Assembly: GCA_016234625.1 (NCBI GenBank)
Contig: JACRBD010000170.1
Span: forward strand, 1-42,050
Length of the DNA stretch: 42,050 nt
Source of the DNA: Caulobacterales bacterium
GTDB taxonomy: Bacteria; Pseudomonadota; Alphaproteobacteria; Caulobacterales; Caulobacteraceae
Direction of reading: 5' to 3'
Under the pieces are notes generated by a model. It did not search any database. It saw nothing but the letters and a program-made list of their open reading frames with translations, and was not told where the DNA came from. Shown piece by piece: positions 8,944 through 27,822 of the stretch (position 1 is its first letter; every line of letters begins with the position of its first letter). Made by a program: the position numbers and the translations under genes.

Positions 8944-8978
8944 GTGTTCCTCGAACTTGAGGAGTAAGGGAGGTGGCC

Positions 8979-9287
8979 ATGCTCACTTTCAATGATCAGG
9001 TCGGCGCAGTCGATGAGCGCAGCACGGAGCGGATGAACTTCCGGACCAAGCCACACATCAAACAGACCATCCAGCGCGCCGCGGCCTTGTCCGGCATGGA
9101 CGATTCCGTGTTCACGATGAACGCGGCCTACCGGTCTGCTCTCGAGACCATCGAAGCGCATGAGCGCACGGCCCTGGCCCCGCGGGACCATGCAGCGTTC
9201 TTCGCCGCCCTAGACGCGCCCCCGGCGCCCACGGACAAGCTCCGGGCAGCCTTCGCTCGTCACCGCGAGACGGTCGGCGGTCGGTGA
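8979..9287 (+). CDS. DUF1778 (TacA-like) antitoxin
   Basis: A 102-residue protein. The N-terminal part, with ERMNFRTKPHIKQTIQRAA and LSGMDDSVFTMNAAY, is the ribbon-helix-helix DNA-binding region of DUF1778. The C-terminal tail, with HAAFFAALDAPPAP, is the flexible segment that wraps the GNAT toxin. It would neutralise the toxin and repress the operon. ATG at 8979 is chosen because AAGGGAGG lies at proper distance; the GTG two codons earlier overlaps that ribosome-binding site. It overlaps the toxin gene by four bases. It lies directly beside repeat copy A, consistent with a mobile or island-stabilising locus. Confidence 0.9.
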   Translation: MLTFNDQVGAVDERSTERMNFRTKPHIKQTIQRAAALSGMDDSVFTMNAAYRSALETIEAHERTALAPRDHAAFFAALDAPPAPTDKLRAAFARHRETVGGR

Positions 9288-9835
9288 GCGCCGGCGAAGA
9301 CGCCCTGAACATCATTGAGCCGTTCGATCCTGAAAAACACGATCGGACGGCTTTTTCCTGCGGTATCGACCAGGTCGACAATTTCTTCAAAAGGACGGCC
9401 AACAAGCTGTCCAAGGCCGACAACCTGCGCGTCTGGGTGATGACCGATCCCGAAGGCGTCCTGATCGGCTTCCACGCCGTCAATGCCCACAGCGTTGACT
9501 ACCAGAATCTTCCGGCCAGGTACGCGCGCACCCGCCCTGGTCACGGACAGATCCCTGCCGCCTATATTTCGATGATCCGGGTCGACCGAACCTTACAAGG
9601 CAAGGGCTATGGCGTAGACCTCCTCGTCGATTGTCTGCGCCGCTTGGCACAGGCCAGCGAGACCCTCGGGCTCGCCGTCGTCATGCTGGATGTCCTGAAT
9701 TGTGGCGACGCCCGGAACCTCGAACAGCGGCTGGCGCTCTATCGGAGCTATGGCTTCGAGCCTCTCCCCAGCACCCCCTTGCGCCTGTTCCTGCCCATGG
9801 CGACGGTCATGGCCCTCTTCAGCGAAGAGCCTTAA
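9284..9835 (+). CDS. GNAT-family toxin (TacT-like acetyltransferase)
   Basis: A 183-residue GNAT protein with GTG start in the antitoxin stop region (GTGA). The acetyl-CoA loop QGKGYG is at residues 105-110 and the C-terminal LYRSYGFEPL holds the probable catalytic tyrosine (Tyr153). Relatives acetylate the amino acid on charged tRNAs and stop translation, and are held inactive by a DUF1778 antitoxin. The segment between residues 50 and 90 carries YARTRPGHGQIP, as in the family. A short piece of a second, decayed copy lies at 3167-3197. The family assignment is firm; the tRNA target is unknown. Confidence 0.9.
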   Translation: MSAGEDALNIIEPFDPEKHDRTAFSCGIDQVDNFFKRTANKLSKADNLRVWVMTDPEGVLIGFHAVNAHSVDYQNLPARYARTRPGHGQIPAAYISMIRVDRTLQGKGYGVDLLVDCLRRLAQASETLGLAVVMLDVLNCGDARNLEQRLALYRSYGFEPLPSTPLRLFLPMATVMALFSEEP

Positions 9836-20349: not shown

Positions 20350-21000
20350 TCAGGCTCCGCCCAGCAACCGTTCGGTCGCGGCGACGATATTTTGCCGCGC
20401 CTGTTCAGGGGAGGCGATCTCTGGATCCACCAGCCAGATCAGGGTGTGGCCGGTGGCCAGGCTCATCAGGGTGGTCGCCAGCTTGCCCGCGTCGATATCG
20501 GCGGGGATCGAGCCATCCAGCTGACCATCCAGCGCCTTCTGTCGCAGATGGGCGTGGAACTGGCGGTTGGCCGCGACAAAGGCGCTTCGAATCTCGGGGA
20601 TCACGCCGATCGATTCCGACATCAGCACGAAATAGGCGCGCACCGGCGCCAGATCCTCCGCTATGTGCGCCATGTAGTAGTCGACGACGCTGAGAATCGC
20701 CGACCGCCCGTCCCGATGAGGCTCGGGGTTTTCGAACGTGGCCATGGCGAAGCCCCGGTGGAGTACCTCCACGAGCCTGGCGACCAGCCCTTCCTTGGAT
20801 CCGAACCTCTGGGTGACCAGGCCGCGGCTGTAGCCCGCCCGTTGGCCAATCTGCTCCAGGGTCGTGGCGCCGTAGCCCTGCTCCGACATCAGCGCCGCCG
20901 CCGACTCGAGCAACGACCGTTCCGACTCAGCCCTGCGCTCGGCCTGCGAGCGCCGGGGGCGGCGCGGAGCGGCGGCGAGCGTCGGGAGTGGCTTGTCCAT
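20350..21000 (-). CDS. TetR/AcrR-family regulator
   Basis: A 216-residue regulator. A basic N-terminus (RRPRRSQAERRAESERSLL) leads to the helix-turn-helix in TTLEQIGQRAGYSRGLVTQRFGSKEGL (about residues 55-80), then a helical ligand-binding domain. It is divergent from the molybdoenzyme operon with 122 bases between, and co-directional with the ThDP enzyme, so it probably controls both by binding between them. The start at 21000 is preferred; an in-frame start at 21087 would use a stretch that overlaps the divergent promoter. The inducer is unknown. Confidence 0.9.
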   Translation of the reverse strand: MDKPLPTLAAAPRRPRRSQAERRAESERSLLESAAALMSEQGYGATTLEQIGQRAGYSRGLVTQRFGSKEGLVARLVEVLHRGFAMATFENPEPHRDGRSAILSVVDYYMAHIAEDLAPVRAYFVLMSESIGVIPEIRSAFVAANRQFHAHLRQKALDGQLDGSIPADIDAGKLATTLMSLATGHTLIWLVDPEIASPEQARQNIVAATERLLGGA

Positions 21001-21013
21001 ACGCAATTCCCTT

Positions 21014-21041
21014 GTTACTTGTTGGCTGGATAGCAACTTAC
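21014..21041. promoter_or_regulatory. imperfect dyad, possible TetR operator
   Basis: The 28-base stretch beginning GTTACTTGTT and ending GCAACTTAC is an imperfect dyad (8 of 14 arm positions symmetric) within the divergent gap. TetR proteins usually bind such sites. The symmetry is modest, so this is only a candidate. Confidence 0.3.
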
Positions 21042-21122
21042 ATGCGGAAGCACCAAACACGCGCTCCTTGTACCGCTCCGCGCCCAACGCGCCTTCGACC
21101 CCAGGTGGGAAGGACTCCAGGC

Positions 21123-24062
21123 ATGACCACGACCAAGTTCGACAGACGCGTATTCCTCAATCTTACCGGCCTTACGGCCCTGTCGGTGGGGCTCCCCTCC
21201 TGCCATCTGAAGCCATCGACGCCCGACGCGGGCGGCCCGGTCGCCAAGCTGGGAACGTGGGAGGATATCTACCGCCAGCGCTGGACCTGGGACAGCGTGA
21301 CCAAGGGCTCCCATGGCTGGCTCAACTGCCGCAGCGCCTGCAACTGGGACCTTTATGTAAAGGACGGCGTCGTCGTCCGTGAAGAACAGACAGCCAACTA
21401 CGAGGCCTCCGAGGACGGCGTCCCCGACTTCAACCCGCGTGGTTGCCAGAAGGGCGGCTGCTACACCGAGGTCATGTACGGCCCGACCCGGCTGACCGTG
21501 CCGATGAAGCGGGCCGGCGCCCGGGGCGAGGGCAAATGGCGGCGCATCTCGTGGGATCAGGCGATCCAGGAAATCGCGGAAAAGCTCGTCGATATCTCCG
21601 AGAAGCACGGCCCGGAGACCATCGTCCAGGACCTCGGTCCACATTTTGACTACGGCGCGACCACCGTGGCCCGAAACCGCTTTTTCGGCATGATGGGCGC
21701 CGCGATGCCCGACGACTGGGCCGAGATCGGCGACCTCAACATGGGCGCCACCCTGACCCTGGGCATGCCGCACATCGGAGGGTCGAGCGACGAGTGGTTC
21801 CTGTCGGATTTTCTCGTGGTCTGGATGATGAACCCGTCCGTGACCCAGATCCCCGACGCGCATTTCCTCTTCGAGGCGCGCTACAACGGCGCCCAGCTTA
21901 CGGTCATCGATCCGATCTACAGCGCCACCGCGATCCATGCCGACCATTGGCTGCCGCTGAAACCCGGAACCGACTCGGGTCTGGCCCTGGCCACGGCGCG
22001 GCACATCTGGGCGACCGGCCGCATCGACCTCGACTATGTCCGCGAGCAGACGGACTTCCCCATCCTCGTGCGCCTGGATACCGGCCGCTTCCTGCGGCAG
22101 AGCGATCTGGAGACGGGCGGCAAGGACAACATCCTCTACATGTGGGACCCCAAGGCGAAGGTGGCGGTTCCAGCCCCCGGCTGCGAGGGCGACCGCACGT
22201 CAAAGCTCGGGCTTGGCGATCTGGTCCCGCCGATCGAGGGTCTCTTCGAGGTCCGCCTGAAGGGCGGCGCCAAGGTGCGGGTCGTTCCGGTCGGCGCGCT
22301 GATCAAGGAGCATCTGGCGCCCTGGACCTTCGAACGCGCGGCCGCCCTGACCGGCCTGGGCGTCGATGCGGTCAAGGCGTTCGCGGAGGGCTTCGCCGCC
22401 GCCAAGCGTCCGATGGTGCTGTCGAGCTGGGGATCGAACCGCTACCTCCACTCCGACCAGATGAACCGCGCGAAGCTGCTGTGCCTGTCGCTGAAAGGCG
22501 CGCTCGGCAAGGAAAAGGGCGCCGGCTATCACTCCACCGGCTGGATCGGGATGACCGGCTTCAACAAGGCGGTCAGCGAAGGAACCACCGGCGCCTTTGG
22601 CGGCGTGAAGAGCCTGGCCGCGATCCTTGGCAACGATTACACATATGGCCTCATCCTCGACAAGATCGCTGGACGGAAGTCCGCGGCCCAGGTCGACCAC
22701 CGCACCGCCAAGAGCATCGTCTCCGCGGCGGCGACGCTGACCAATTCCGGCAGCCAGAACTACAATCACCAGGGCATCAAGGAGATCCTCGCCAGGGAAG
22801 AGGACCACCTCTACCCCCGGCCGCTCGCCGCCTATGTGGGGGAATCGCAGGACAAGGGCTGGGTGCCTGTGTGCCCGGCGCCGAACAAGCCGCCCCGCGC
22901 CTGGATCACTGGTGGCAGCAACGTGCTGCGGCGGTCGAACATGCCGCAGCGCTTCCTCGAACACGTCTGGCCCAAACTCGACCTGGTGGTCGACATCAAC
23001 CAGAAGAACACCTTCACCGGCCTCCACGCCGATTACCTGCTTCCGGCGGCGGGTTACTATGAAAAGCCGGGCATCAAGTACACGGTCGCCTACATTCCCT
23101 ACCTGCAATATTGCGGCGCGGCGGTGAAACCCGTCGGGGAATCGAAGGACGAATGGGAGATCTTCTATCTCCTGTCCCGGGCGGTGCAGCGCATCGCCAA
23201 AAAGCGTCGAACGGGCGCCCTCGCGGGCTGTGGCGGCAAGGCTGTCGACCTGCGAACCATCGGCGACCGCTTCACCTCCGGCGGCAAGCACGGCCCGCAC
23301 GACGCGGAGAAGGTTACTGACTCCATCATCCGGAAGAGCTCCTCGACCAAGGGCGTGAAGCTGAGAGCCCTGAAGAAGAACGGCATCGCCAAGTTCGAAA
23401 ACTCCGGCGGCACCGGCATTCAGGAGAACATCTACAATTCAGACTGGGACGGCGAGGGCGTCCTGCAGGCGATGACCGATTTCGTGCGGCACAAGGCATC
23501 CTACATGACCCTGACCGGTCGCCAGCAGTATTACATCGATCACCCCTGGTTCCTCGAAGCGGGCGAGGCGCTGCCCACCCACATCGACAGCCCCAAGGCC
23601 GGCGGCGACCACCCCTTCCAGATGGTGTCCTGCCATTCCCGCTGGAGCGTCCATAGCGTCTGGCGCGACACGCCCATGCTGCTGCGACTTCAGCGGGGTG
23701 AGCCACAGCTCTATCTCAATCCCGTCGACGCCAAGGCCATCGGCGTCAAGGACGGTGCATGGGGCGAGATCAGCAACGACTATGGCAAAATCCGTATGCG
23801 GATCAAATACTCGACCATGGTCCGCCCCAAGGTCGCCTACTACTTCCACGCCTGGGAGCCACACCAGTTCCCCGACCATCGCAGCTACAAGTTCCTCACA
23901 CCGGGATTGATGAACCCCTTGCACTTCGCCGGCGGCGAGGGCGGGCAACTGGGCTTCTTCTTCGGCCATTTCGAGCCGGGAACTCATGTTCAGGACACGC
24001 GAGTCGCAATTGCGCCATGGCGGGACGTTGAACCCACGCAGACTAGGGAGACCGCGACGTGA
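21123..24062 (+). CDS. type II DMSO-reductase-family molybdenum enzyme, catalytic alpha subunit (EbdA/S25dA-like)
   Basis: A 979-residue molybdopterin enzyme. A Tat signal, DRRVFLNLTG, sits at residues 7-16 with a lipobox-like LPSC ending at Cys27. The cluster site has His64, Cys69, Cys73 and Cys108 (PRGCQKGG), the N-terminal pattern of nitrate-reductase/type II enzymes but with one extra residue after the histidine. A probable molybdenum ligand is Asp204 in EIGDLN. IPDAHFLFEARYNGAQLTVIDP and the C-terminal dinucleotide-binding domain follow. Relatives are periplasmic: ethylbenzene, p-cymene and C25-steroid dehydrogenases (water-dependent hydroxylation), DMS dehydrogenase, selenate and chlorate reductases. 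The operon order matches ebdABCD. The substrate is not determined. Confidence 0.85.
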   Translation: MTTTKFDRRVFLNLTGLTALSVGLPSCHLKPSTPDAGGPVAKLGTWEDIYRQRWTWDSVTKGSHGWLNCRSACNWDLYVKDGVVVREEQTANYEASEDGVPDFNPRGCQKGGCYTEVMYGPTRLTVPMKRAGARGEGKWRRISWDQAIQEIAEKLVDISEKHGPETIVQDLGPHFDYGATTVARNRFFGMMGAAMPDDWAEIGDLNMGATLTLGMPHIGGSSDEWFLSDFLVVWMMNPSVTQIPDAHFLFEARYNGAQLTVIDPIYSATAIHADHWLPLKPGTDSGLALATARHIWATGRIDLDYVREQTDFPILVRLDTGRFLRQSDLETGGKDNILYMWDPKAKVAVPAPGCEGDRTSKLGLGDLVPPIEGLFEVRLKGGAKVRVVPVGALIKEHLAPWTFERAAALTGLGVDAVKAFAEGFAAAKRPMVLSSWGSNRYLHSDQMNRAKLLCLSLKGALGKEKGAGYHSTGWIGMTGFNKAVSEGTTGAFGGVKSLAAILGNDYTYGLILDKIAGRKSAAQVDHRTAKSIVSAAATLTNSGSQNYNHQGIKEILAREEDHLYPRPLAAYVGESQDKGWVPVCPAPNKPPRAWITGGSNVLRRSNMPQRFLEHVWPKLDLVVDINQKNTFTGLHADYLLPAAGYYEKPGIKYTVAYIPYLQYCGAAVKPVGESKDEWEIFYLLSRAVQRIAKKRRTGALAGCGGKAVDLRTIGDRFTSGGKHGPHDAEKVTDSIIRKSSSTKGVKLRALKKNGIAKFENSGGTGIQENIYNSDWDGEGVLQAMTDFVRHKASYMTLTGRQQYYIDHPWFLEAGEALPTHIDSPKAGGDHPFQMVSCHSRWSVHSVWRDTPMLLRLQRGEPQLYLNPVDAKAIGVKDGAWGEISNDYGKIRMRIKYSTMVRPKVAYYFHAWEPHQFPDHRSYKFLTPGLMNPLHFAGGEGGQLGFFFGHFEPGTHVQDTRVAIAPWRDVEPTQTRETAT

Positions 24063-25099
24063 CCGCCAAAGCCTCGCCATCCGTCCGGCCCCCGCGCCAG
24101 CTCGCGATGGTTCTCGACCTCAACAAATGCCTCGGCTGCCAGACCTGCACCATCGCCTGCAAGAAGCTCTGGAACACCGATTCCGGCGCCGCCTACGCCT
24201 ACTGGAACAACGTCGAAACCCGGCCGGGAAAGGGGTATCCCAAGGACTGGCGGGTGACCGGCGGGCGCAAGGCGGACGGCTCGGTCAAACGGGGCGAGAT
24301 CCGGGACCTCAAGACCGGCTACGGCGAGCCGTGGACCTTCAATCACCAGCGGGTCGTCAAATCCGACTCCAACAAGGGCAAGGAGTGGCTGCGCCCCACG
24401 GAATCCCCCGACTGGGGCCCCAATTGGGACGAGGACGAGGGCGCCGGCGAATACCCCGCCACCAACCACCACTTCTACCTGCCCCGGCTGTGCAATCACT
24501 GCACGCATCCAGCCTGTATGGACGCCTGTCCGAGGGGGGCGATCTACAAACGCTCGGAGGACGGGATCGTCCTGGTCAACCAGGACCGGTGCCACGGCTA
24601 TCGCTTCTGCGTCGAGGCCTGCCCCTACAAGAAGGTGTTCTTCGATCCGGAGCGGTCGGTCTCGACCAAATGCATCTTCTGCCTGCCGCGGGTGGAGAAG
24701 GGCGTCGCGCCGGCCTGCGCGCGGCAGTGCCCTGGCCGGTTGCGCTTCGTCGGTTATCGCGACGATCCGGAAGGCCCGATCTGGAAGCTGGTCCACAAAT
24801 GGAAGGTGGCCATTCCCCTGCACCCGGAGTTCAGGCTGGAGCCAAACGTGTTCTACGTGCCGCCCGTCAGCCCGCCGAAGATCGGTCCCGGCGGCCGCGC
24901 CATGGCCGAGGACCGCATCCCGCTCGCCTATCTTGAGAGCCTGTTCGGCGACGCCGTGGGGCCCGCGCTCGACGTGCTGCGCGCCGAACGGGCCAAACGC
25001 AAACGGGGCGAGGCCAGCGAGCTCATGGAGTTGCTGATTGCCTACGACTGGAACAACAACTTCAAGCTCGACCAGGGCGCGCGCGAGGTGTTCAAGTGA
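24059..25099 (+). CDS. iron-sulfur beta subunit of the molybdenum enzyme
   Basis: A 346-residue electron-transfer subunit with GTG start inside the alpha stop (GTGA). Four cysteine clusters are visible: CLGCQTCTIAC (24-34), CNHCTHPACMDAC (145-157), CHGYRFCVEAC (178-188) and Cys205/208/220/224. In the third group Tyr181 replaces a cysteine, the sign of one [3Fe-4S] besides three [4Fe-4S] clusters, as in NarH and EbdB. It has no signal peptide and would be exported with the alpha subunit by Tat. It passes electrons from the alpha-subunit cluster to the heme of the gamma subunit. Confidence 0.9.
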   Translation: MTAKASPSVRPPRQLAMVLDLNKCLGCQTCTIACKKLWNTDSGAAYAYWNNVETRPGKGYPKDWRVTGGRKADGSVKRGEIRDLKTGYGEPWTFNHQRVVKSDSNKGKEWLRPTESPDWGPNWDEDEGAGEYPATNHHFYLPRLCNHCTHPACMDACPRGAIYKRSEDGIVLVNQDRCHGYRFCVEACPYKKVFFDPERSVSTKCIFCLPRVEKGVAPACARQCPGRLRFVGYRDDPEGPIWKLVHKWKVAIPLHPEFRLEPNVFYVPPVSPPKIGPGGRAMAEDRIPLAYLESLFGDAVGPALDVLRAERAKRKRGEASELMELLIAYDWNNNFKLDQGAREVFK

Positions 25100-25647
25100 A
25101 ACAGACGATCAATCTGGTCCGCGCGCCCACGATGATCCAGCCCGGAGGCTATGTCCCCACGGCCTATCCCGACGCCGGCCAGCCGCTCACGCCGAACGCC
25201 GTCCTGATGGTCGACCGGAACGGCGCCCGCGGCTGGATCGTGCATCTGGCCTGGCCCTGCGCCGAGCCGGTCGATGAGATCAAGTCCGACACCAACCGCT
25301 TCGCCGACGCCGCGGCGCTGCTCGCGCCCGTGCTGGAAGACACGCCGATGATTTCCATGGGCGGTCCTGACGTTCCCGTCGAAGGGATATTGTGGCGGGC
25401 GGATTGGACCGCACCGGTCAAGATTGTCGCGGAAGGATTCGGGACCGTGGCGCGTCATCCTGCGCCGGCCGGCTGGAGCGCGCGGGGAACCTGGAAAGAC
25501 GGCGTCCGGACCGCCCGCTTCGAGATTCCGGACTGGCCCGCCCTGGCCGCCCGCAAGCTGCTGGGCGTAGCCATCTGGCAGGGGGCGGGACGCGAGCGCG
25601 CGGGGCTGAAATCCGTGTGCGCCGACTGGATCCCGGTGACCGCATGA
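25096..25647 (+). CDS. heme b gamma subunit (EbdC-like)
   Basis: A 183-residue protein with GTG start overlapping the beta stop. The region MISMGGPDVPVEGILWRADW (residues 85-104) corresponds to the heme b domain of ethylbenzene-dehydrogenase-type gamma subunits, where a methionine and a lysine ligate the heme; Met85 or Met88 and Lys154 are candidates. A beta-rich fold is expected. Unlike described gamma subunits, the N-terminus (MKQTINLVRAPTM) has no visible signal peptide. It may travel with the alpha-beta complex, or the start may be misjudged. Identification rests on context and short motifs, so it is less sure than its neighbours. Confidence 0.7.
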   Translation: MKQTINLVRAPTMIQPGGYVPTAYPDAGQPLTPNAVLMVDRNGARGWIVHLAWPCAEPVDEIKSDTNRFADAAALLAPVLEDTPMISMGGPDVPVEGILWRADWTAPVKIVAEGFGTVARHPAPAGWSARGTWKDGVRTARFEIPDWPALAARKLLGVAIWQGAGRERAGLKSVCADWIPVTA

Positions 25648-26129
25648 CCCGCCTCGCCGTCTCGACCGAAAGCCTCGTCCTGTTCGCCTGGGCGCGGGTG
25701 TGGAGCCCCATGGTCCCGGTCGCCTGGTTTCAGGAGGCCTGGCAAGCCCTGCGGCTTCCGGACGATCCGGATCTGCGGGACTTGGAATTCTGCAGCCTGT
25801 TCCATGTCGGGGTCCCGGCGCCGCGCGTGCCGCTGCTCCTGCACGCGACCCTGAACCGGCCTGGCGATGTCGTACGGATGGACTGGATGCGGGTCATGTC
25901 GCACCTGGCGCTCAAGCCGGGCGACCATGTGCTGCCGCCCGATCATCTGGCGATCTGCTGCGAGATCTTCGCCCAGGCCGCCGCCCGGGGCGAGGACCTG
26001 ATCGTCCACGAACTTCGCGCGCGCTACCTGCTGCCCTGGTGTGACGCCGCGGCGCGACGCCTGTCGGGCGAGGATCCGCGGTTCGCGGTGATCGTCGAGG
26101 AATTCCGCGAGGCGGTGGAAGCGGCGTGA
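25644..26129 (+). CDS. TorD-like molybdoenzyme chaperone (delta)
   Basis: A 161-residue, mostly helical protein whose ATG overlaps the gamma stop (ATGA). It has the shape and position of the NarJ/TorD/EbdD chaperones that hold the alpha subunit while the cofactor is inserted and prevent early Tat export. A conserved-looking LPPDHLAICCEIFAQAA segment lies at residues 97-113, like the PxDH motif of TorD proteins. It is cytoplasmic and not part of the final enzyme. The four overlapping genes and the hairpin after this stop mark the end of the operon. Confidence 0.75.
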   Translation: MTRLAVSTESLVLFAWARVWSPMVPVAWFQEAWQALRLPDDPDLRDLEFCSLFHVGVPAPRVPLLLHATLNRPGDVVRMDWMRVMSHLALKPGDHVLPPDHLAICCEIFAQAAARGEDLIVHELRARYLLPWCDAAARRLSGEDPRFAVIVEEFREAVEAA

Positions 26130-26223: not shown

Positions 26224-26598
26224 TCAATCCCGCAAGGCGGCGACGTAGGTTCCCATGTCGAAATAGTCGCGCCAGACCTTTATGCGGCCATCCCGCATCT
26301 CGAATACGCCGCAACAGGGTAGGTTGACCGGCTTGCCGCCGACGACGGTTCGATCAAGGCGTTCGGCGAAAACCGTATCACCCGCGGAAGCCAAGCCCAG
26401 GACATCCCACTCGGTCGAGGCCCAGTCCTTCAGAAAGGCAGAGATGAACGGGCGAAGCGCGTCATGCCCCGTGACCGGCTTCATCGGCATGTTGTGGTAG
26501 ACGCCATCCTCGCAAAAATACTGGACCAACTCCTCGACATCCAACCGCGTCCAGGCAGCGATGAAATCGCGGACCACCTGCTCATTGGTCGTCATCAT
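26224..26598 (-). CDS. limonene-1,2-epoxide hydrolase-like protein
   Basis: A 124-residue NTF2-fold protein. The residues that make up the limonene-epoxide-hydrolase active site are all present in order: Tyr34 and Asn36 (YHNMP), Arg80 and Asp82 (ERLDR), and Asp111 (WRDYFD). This is a better match than generic SnoaL proteins, which lack the Arg-Asp-Asp set. Such enzymes add water to epoxides in one step, without a covalent intermediate, in the cytoplasm. Start ATG 26598 has GGGGGA just upstream. The gene is convergent with the molybdoenzyme operon and abuts a broken TonB receptor. An epoxide of a terpene or sterol is a plausible but unproven substrate. Confidence 0.75.
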   Translation of the reverse strand: MMTTNEQVVRDFIAAWTRLDVEELVQYFCEDGVYHNMPMKPVTGHDALRPFISAFLKDWASTEWDVLGLASAGDTVFAERLDRTVVGGKPVNLPCCGVFEMRDGRIKVWRDYFDMGTYVAALRD

Positions 26599-26636: not shown

Positions 26637-27654
26637 ATCTGGTCGGGGAACCTGTTCCGGTCGCGAAACGTCATACACCGGCACATCGAACAGGCAACGA
26701 CCGTCATCGCCGAGGCCTTGAAGCCGCAGTTCGATACCGGCGGCTTCATCGACCTGAAATACGGCGTCAACAACGAAAACGTCATGGTCCAGGGAGTCTA
26801 CAACCAAAAGGTCAACGACAACTTCGCGATCCGCCTCGGCGCACAGTATTTCGACCAGGATGGCGGCGTCTTCTACAACGCCACCCGCGACGAGTATTTC
26901 GACCATGAGGAAGGCAACATCGTCCGCGGCCAGATGCGCTTCGCTAGCGGCGCGCTGGACGTAAACGTCCTGCTCGAAAACCAGGTCGCTTCGCTGCCAG
27001 CGCTGAACTGGCAACTGGACATCGCCCCCGGCCCCGGGTTTCCGGTCGGCTTCACCGAGCAGAAGCGGGTCTACCACTGGAACTCGCCCTCGCGGGCCAA
27101 GCAGCAGATAACCGGGGCGGTACTGTCGGTGAACTATGACCTGGGCTGGGGCGAACTGGTCTCGGTGTCGGCCAGCCGCATCCGCTATACCCAGAACGCC
27201 TTCGATGGCGAGGGCGAGGCCTGGGGGATCGAGGGGGTGATCGACGGCCGCTTCGAGCTAGGGGCCGGCGATCTGCCGGTCAGCCTGGGCGCCTCGCGCC
27301 AGGAGGGCGAGATCGTCTCCGGGGCCGTTCGCGGGCGCGACCATGCCGCAGGTGCCCGAATGGGTCACGTCGGCTCCGGTCAACTTCCGCCATCCCTTCG
27401 TCGGCGACTCGACGGTGGCCTTCAACCTCGCCTATCGCGGCCAACGCGGCGGCGTCCAGGAGATCGCCGGCACGCCGCTGCTGTCGGCCTACGACGTGAT
27501 CGACGCCCGGGTCATGTTCGACTTCGGCGGCTGGCAGGTCGCGGCCTTCGCCGACAACGCCACCAACGAGATGTACGTCAACTTCGCCAGCGCCACGAAC
27601 AAGCGCTGGAGCCAGCCCCGGCACTATGGCCTGCAGGTCCGCAAGGCCTGGTAG
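26637..27654 (+). pseudogene. broken TonB-dependent receptor
   Basis: The frame is open from the region of IWSGNLFRSRNV (near 26640) through EALKPQFDTGG, FIDLKYG and DLGWGELVSVSASR, all typical of the plug-barrel junction and barrel of TonB receptors, then ends in SLGASRQEGEIVSG near 27325. From 27343 a different frame continues with PEWVTSAPVNFRHPF and ends in HYGLQVRKAW at 27654, the usual receptor C-terminus. A signal peptide, TonB box and most of the plug are missing, and the two parts together are about half the normal barrel. A frameshift with deletions is inferred; a sequencing error could explain the frameshift but not the missing parts. It lies next to the epoxide-hydrolase-like gene. 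Confidence 0.75.
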
Positions 27655-27660
27655 GCGGAC

Positions 27661-27695
27661 GGCGGCGGGAACTCCGATGCCCCCCTCCCGCCGCC
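27661..27695 (+). terminator. terminator-like stem after the receptor remnant
   Basis: GGCGGCGGGA and TCCCGCCGCC form a perfect 10-base stem with a 15-base loop, seven bases after the receptor stop, followed by a mixed T-rich stretch (TGCTGCTGTTGTTT). It probably ended transcription of the original receptor gene. Confidence 0.55.
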
Positions 27696-27822
27696 TGCTG
27701 CTGTTGTTTCCGGGTCGTCACGCAAGCGCTCGCAGTGTGGTTCTTGTGAACGTCGGCAGCGTGTCAGGAGCGGGCGCCGAACCGTGAATTTGCACCGTAG
27801 AGCGCGGGGTCGAACGGACCTG

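Follow-up and report, generated by a model that had tools for sequence, protein, structure and literature searches.

What reaction is catalysed by the molybdenum enzyme whose four genes lie together at positions 21123–26129 of a contig from a Caulobacterales bacterium? The window analysed, 42,050 bases, is the entire contig C90 of a genome (G000) resembling a metagenome-assembled genome (MAG), with 3.77 Mb in 365 contigs, 91.75% completeness and 2% contamination. An earlier note, made from the sequence of the window, had proposed that four overlapping genes form a complete type II operon encoding a water-dependent C–H hydroxylase, leaving its substrate open. The first part of that proposal is confirmed: this is a complete alpha-beta-gamma-delta operon of the type II dimethyl sulfoxide (DMSO) reductase family, each gene overlapping the next by 4 bp, and all four genes are intact and match families of the expected kinds. 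The label 'molybdenum hydroxylase', used in the note, usually denotes the xanthine-oxidase family, to which this operon does not belong. The genes are as follows.

21123..24062, + strand: alpha, the catalytic subunit for a molybdenum bis-molybdopterin guanine dinucleotide cofactor with a twin-arginine translocation (Tat) signal, 979 aa (TIGR03479, PF00384, PF01568)
24059..25099, + strand: beta, iron-sulfur subunit, 346 aa (TIGR03478, cysteine count, PDB matches)
25096..25647, + strand: gamma, a short heme b subunit, 183 aa (TIGR03477, EbdC match)
25644..26129, + strand: delta, NarJ/TorD-like assembly chaperone, 161 aa (PF02613, homologues at related loci)

The alpha subunit scores 825 bits against TIGR03479 (E 7e-248), short of the curated cut-off of 984.75, and because it covers 912 of the 913 model positions we take it to be a divergent member; it also matches PF00384 and PF01568. 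Beta scores 492.7 bits against TIGR03478, above the cut-off of 480.7, and its best PDB matches are PcrB and EbdB, with PcrA among the best of alpha. Gamma matches TIGR03477 at 69.9 bits, under the cut-off of 169.85, and EbdC with E 1.4e-9, while the match of delta to PF02613 is marginal (23.3 bits over a cut-off of 22.2) and no NCBIfam model matched it. According to a published account (PMC8840923), a conserved aspartate is the Mo ligand in the type II DMSO reductase family and the FS0 cluster is held by one histidine and three cysteines. Alpha Asp204, the candidate Mo ligand, aligns with EbdA Asp223, and the candidate FS0 ligands His64, Cys69, Cys73 and Cys108 are invariant in an alignment (A1) of ten alphas. 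The 15 cysteines of beta fit three [4Fe-4S] clusters and one [3Fe-4S] cluster. A methionine (in MG) and a lysine (in LKS) of gamma, kept in all 17 aligned gammas including EbdC, ClrC and those of steroid C26 dehydrogenases (S26DH), are candidate heme b ligands; those of ethylbenzene dehydrogenase (EbDH) are also Met and Lys (PMC8840923).

Which characterised enzyme stands nearest? When genome contigs were scanned with alignment A1, at least 568 relatives were obtained; the best 80, representing 77 loci, were kept. Among the matches listed the closest are in the MAGs Bpl_16 (68%) and Deltaproteobacteria OFTM73 (66%), followed by two more from Myxococcota/Deltaproteobacteria (64%) and one from Pseudomonadales (62%), and then by strain HdN1 (59%), Moraxellaceae (58%) and Sterolibacterium MAGs (56–57%). 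One of the four genomes of the genus of a Sterolibacterium MAG, G590, carries eight alphas on a single contig in a 3 + 4 + 1 pattern. The window alpha is 56–58% identical to the three, two of them in tandem, about 42–46% to the four, and 39% to the eighth; a second comparison gives 54–56% for the three and 39–41% for the four, and mutual identities are 82.4, 78.5 and 76.3% among the three and 70–82% among the four, with N-termini untrimmed. For Sterolibacterium denitrificans it is reported that alpha2–4 of the steroid C25 dehydrogenases S25DH1–4 are 72–82% identical to alpha1 (PMC6016249), that DH5–7 are S26DH1–3 with mutual identities above 80% (PMC7411048), and that S26DH1 and S26DH2 have neighbouring accessions (PMC11061730). 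Because the pattern of four, three and one matches S25DH1–4, S26DH1–3 and the distant DH8, G590 fits S. denitrificans, although two of its three S26DH-like pairs fall slightly under the published 80%. Two major alpha clades, S25dA1–4 and S25dA5–7, have also been described from denitrifying sludge (PMC6208644).

The phylogeny suggested in the earlier note was built with EbdA, ClrA, PcrA and S25DH-like rows; SerA, CmdA, AhyA and DdhA are outside the trees. In the first tree, of 49 rows chosen from 203 homologous open reading frames and a few references (ClrA, EbdA and NarG being long branches), the window alpha and its counterpart in G026, a genome of the same genus, fall with the three S26DH-like alphas of G590 in a 24-row clade, apart from S25DH, from EbdA with DH8, and from ClrA and PcrA; support is 100 in this tree and 100/100 in a 29-row tree. 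The FS0 pattern H-x4-C-x3-C is present in 23 of the 24 clade rows (it failed on L070) and in the four S25DH-like rows of G590, the spacing being H-x3-C-x3-C in ClrA, PcrA and a haloarchaeal enzyme and H-x3-C-x5-C in EbdA and DH8. The S25DH enzymes thus share with the window the type II plan and this spacing, and the published ones hydroxylate with water (PMC6016249), but they differ in lying outside the clade.

These data bear directly on a respiratory reductase of chlorate, perchlorate or selenate. ClrA and PcrA share the family, the region of the Mo-ligand aspartate, the FS0 histidine and the subunit plan, and PDB searches place PcrA and PcrB among the best matches, but the window alpha is only 33% and 36% identical to ClrA and PcrA, respectively, and its FS0 spacing differs. 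An approximately unbiased (AU) test joining the window pair with ClrA, PcrA and the haloarchaeal enzyme, a constraint on five rows, was rejected (p 2.2e-44). Since these reductase rows did not form one group in that tree, ClrA and PcrA were also tested as single partners of the window pair (46 rows), and both were rejected (p 2.3e-88 and 8.4e-6); holding the three reductase rows together costs just 2.5 log units (p 0.356). The note had named a firm placement of alpha with a characterised reductase such as ClrA or SerA as telling against its proposal; alpha branches with neither of the two reductases tested, ClrA and PcrA (SerA is outside the tree sample), and we regard an oxyanion reductase as very improbable.

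The special likeness to ebdABCD that had been claimed does not hold up. The subunit plan, Mo-ligand aspartate and FS0 histidine are shared, but EbdA is 31% identical, belongs to another branch and cannot be united with the window pair (AU p 1.1e-30), and the window alpha scores 501 bits against the ethylbenzene dehydrogenase model NF042978, whose cut-off is 2000. Ethylbenzene dehydrogenase and the proposed alkane C2 hydroxylase suggest another alternative, namely an enzyme that hydroxylates n-alkanes or the side chains of aromatic compounds. The enzyme class would be the same, and both the clade member at 59% in HdN1, an alkane-degrading nitrate reducer, and the alkane-type CYP153 encoded in the window speak for it. 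The rejected clade with EbdA speaks against it, AhyA and CmdA being outside the tree sample, and HdN1 also has KshA and KstD matches, so that its copy may serve steroids; we consider this alternative improbable. The HdN1 locus (L077, 7962–13042) is itself an alpha-beta-gamma-delta operon, and the anaerobic alkane activation of this strain is an open question; the main text of the 2011 HdN1 paper nowhere uses the term molybd. A pairing of the window alpha with the uncharacterised DH8 was rejected, as the 39%-identity alpha of G590 falls in the EbdA branch. On the EbdA side of the tree there is also a genome of the same class (G313:C63) with a pair of type II alphas separated by about 9 kb (L046 and L050).

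In the 29-row tree the clade splits into subclade A (7 rows, 99/98), which includes the window, and subclade B (15 rows, 100/98), which includes S26DH1–3; the HdN1 and Moraxellaceae rows are placed in neither. Bpl_16 and OFTM73 each carry at least one copy in A and at least one in B, so the two subclades look like paralogues. A single column mirrors this division: at window residue 174, which probably lies near the active site, there is a histidine in all seven A rows and in HdN1 and Moraxellaceae, and an asparagine in all 15 B rows, a marker chosen in this analysis and not a published criterion. The EbdA counterpart is His192 by one alignment and His194, two residues apart, by another; His192 we take to be an active-site residue. 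The window enzyme thus resembles S26DH1–3 (PMC7411048, PMC11061730) in clade, alpha-beta-gamma order, FS0 spacing and a short gamma with the conserved Met and Lys, but differs in subclade and in His174. As to OFTM73, type II alphas are very strongly expanded in its genome (G580), which has 29 stretches matching alpha, some of which belong to a single gene, and 20 KstD-family matches. Elsewhere among the relatives, L081 (7–5958) is a single open frame of 1984 codons with two alpha-like halves (37% and 42% identical to the window), possibly a double-alpha fusion.

We therefore favor, at a probability of roughly 0.55, a periplasmic water-dependent hydroxylase with S26DH-like chemistry that would act on an allylic or isoprenoid methyl group and pass electrons to cytochrome c; the water-dependent C–H hydroxylase of the earlier note is thus supported as the most likely function. 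Alpha, beta and gamma would form a soluble periplasmic molybdenum enzyme matured by the delta chaperone, with alpha exported by the Tat system and beta and gamma carried along; an RRVFL Tat motif can be read by eye at the alpha N-terminus, and no obvious signal peptide is seen by eye in gamma. Mo(VI)=O would abstract a hydride at an activated (allylic) C–H, the hydroxyl would come from water, and two electrons would leave through FS0–FS4 to the gamma heme b and on to a high-potential cytochrome c. We note also a lipobox-like LPSC in the Tat signal region (21123–21210), a possible lipid anchor, whose cysteine is likewise present in the three S26DH-like alphas of G590.

Is the substrate then a steroid? 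S26DH1, which contains 0.89 heme b and 0.81 Mo per enzyme, makes an allylic C26 alcohol (PMC7411048). In S. denitrificans S26DH enters the cholesterol route only once S25DH and two subsequent steps have introduced a double bond, and in the stigmasterol route a desaturase makes it beforehand (PMC7411048, PMC11061730); the window enzyme would therefore need an unsaturated substrate or another enzyme to make one. A true steroid side-chain C26 hydroxylase, in a host that either transforms sterols partially or has ring-degrading genes that were missed, is suggested by the nearest characterised enzymes being S26DH1–3, and by KstD scores above 430 bits in three of the four other genomes of the window's subclade that were tested (those of L064, L065, L066 and L068). 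However, the KstD model NF009479 has no match in G000 or in the 99%-complete G026, although 9 and 10 candidates were scored, while other clade-bearing genomes exceed 420 bits in six of eight cases (G582 has 74 and G587 26.5); the model cut-off of 793 is reached in none of the genomes searched. Nor does KshA (PF19298) match in G000 or G026, but it matches in only three of ten genomes searched and is absent from G590 too; the steroid genes searched were these two, both of them genes for the steroid ring. G000 has one alpha of the S26DH-like kind and no second, S25DH-type alpha, its other TIGR03479 matches being NarG pieces and distant molybdoenzymes below 40 bits, and the replacement of Asn by His174 also speaks against a steroid substrate, which we judge rather unlikely. 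Because the KstD and KshA searches came up empty and a double bond is needed, we think, with modest confidence, that a non-steroid isoprenoid or terpenoid side chain is a likelier natural substrate than a sterol used for growth.

The operon plan at related loci bears on the same reading. Of 16 other related loci, 12 have beta and gamma homologues beside alpha and 13 have a delta homologue; L073 and L076 are alphas alone on short contigs, and at L065 (7965–11417) and L069 (2387–5798) delta directly follows alpha and neither beta nor gamma is present. The alphas of L065 and L069 may borrow beta and gamma from elsewhere, and alphas without their own are not unheard of, since S. denitrificans has fewer beta-gamma than alpha genes (PMC6016249). 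Several points nevertheless weigh against the hydroxylase that we favor: alpha and gamma score under their curated cut-offs; G590 is equated with S. denitrificans by its alpha pattern and not by name; the window lies outside the subclade of the characterised S26DH and, given this split and His174, its substrate cannot be read from theirs; three genomes of its own subclade (those of L064, L065 and L066) have strong KstD matches; the surroundings of the operon in the window offer no recognisable gene set for a substrate; and L065, in the same subclade, has neither beta nor gamma, so the subunit plan varies within it.

Where would the electrons go? The earlier note thought the host likely to be aerobic, and this stands in part: aa3 and cbb3 oxidases score over cut-off in both G000 and G026, but G000 also encodes NarG (1473 bits, cut-off 1084) with two NarK-type transporters (both under cut-off) and an FtrB-type regulator on contig C223, and UbiU and UbiV, both over cut-off, on contig C125. 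UbiU and UbiV belong to the O2-independent ubiquinone pathway (PMC6747719). In G026 the operon has a UbiV gene about 5 kb upstream, and the gene directly downstream is an FtrB gene 89% identical to that beside narK and narG in G000. NirS was not found in G000 or G026; the NirK model has weak matches in G000 (at most 47.6 bits, where the cut-off is 296.3, to frames of 550–636 aa), which we take to be other multicopper proteins, and none in G026, while the NosZ search, run without a positive control, does not show absence. The host thus looks like a facultative bacterium able to reduce nitrate to nitrite, and because NirS was not found, the NirK matches are weak and both oxidases are present, the electrons may still end up on O2. 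The gamma heme of EbDH has a potential of +256 mV (PMC8840923); if that of the window is as oxidising, we infer that electrons would pass to cytochrome c and an oxidase and not to NarG.

Could the operon be a non-working relic, or its contig misbinned into the wrong genome? The fragmented, MAG-like and incomplete state of G000, with its trace of contamination, leaves room for this, but G026 carries the same four genes in the same order, with the TetR gene and upstream neighbours, on a 217-kb contig, its copy being 96% identical. The window is collinear with that contig over 10022–26202, G026 being about 5 kb longer between window positions 20352 and 20360; outside this segment the window has no match in the 59.9 kb of G026 compared. 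Between G000 and G026 dN/dS is 0.073 for alpha, 0.101 for beta, 0.090 for gamma and 0.192 for delta, and no internal stops interrupt the genes; the operon is under purifying selection. Given the same genes in the same order and dN/dS of 0.07–0.19, it is not a chance assembly, and a relic or misbinned contig is hardly credible. Full-length copies are present in two of 199 genomes searched as relatives (G000 itself and G026); in a class-wide sample five of 385 genomes, G000 included, match at E <= 1e-60, the other four at only 34–44%. Viral contigs gave no match, and the 858 plasmid records with a match are all below 60% identity (34.8% for the top-ranked). In the literature searched, mainly openly available, no title or abstract start treating an S26DH-type enzyme of Alphaproteobacteria was among the matches listed.

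Beyond the four genes and a nearby regulator, no neighbours common across the clade were seen. The regulator in the window is divergent from the operon:

20350..21087, − strand: TetR-type regulator (PF00440, 54.3 bits; start codon provisional)

TetR genes, called by eye, also lie near the L064, L065 and HdN1 copies. On the opposite strand after the operon (26224–26598) is a SnoaL protein resembling limonene-epoxide hydrolase, with a relative (43%) about 5 kb from the L067 copy, a weak hint only. In G026 the genes downstream of the operon include those for an acyl-CoA dehydrogenase, a thiolase and an acyl-CoA ligase, none over its curated cut-off. The note had also pointed to a Baeyer-Villiger monooxygenase and a CYP153 in the window; a CYP153 and a protein resembling the former are present, but nothing links either to the operon. 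The segment 33976–37916 encodes a CYP153-type P450, a 2Fe-2S ferredoxin and a TonB receptor, an oxygen-dependent alkane hydroxylase set; the P450 was considered as a steroid monooxygenase and rejected, its best PDB match being CYP153A7. At 26718–27749 are what appear by eye to be remains of a TonB receptor broken into frames, with no Pfam match, and at 8973–9835 a gene for a TacA1-like antitoxin precedes one resembling GNAT acetyltransferases, the two probably forming a toxin-antitoxin pair.

More tentatively, and as a proposal that may well prove wrong, the window's subclade could be a separate enzyme type beside S26DH, one that uses water to hydroxylate an isoprenoid other than a steroid in an alphaproteobacterium with a facultative lifestyle and sends electrons via cytochrome c to the cbb3 or aa3 oxidase. 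If the proposal is true, O2 would serve this water-using hydroxylase only as a distant electron sink. Hydroxylating a selected site with water has practical value, as shown for S25DH in making 25-hydroxyvitamin D3 (PMC6016249). To our knowledge, the water-dependent enzymes characterised so far that hydroxylate unactivated carbon are few and come mostly from denitrifiers. The locus bears on whether such an enzyme works in a host in which searches did not find the later denitrification genes looked for, its electrons then needing an oxidase. Finally, the presence of a paralogous subclade in two genomes with neither KstD nor KshA matches points to substrates beyond sterols and provides a defined set of loci for this branch of the family.

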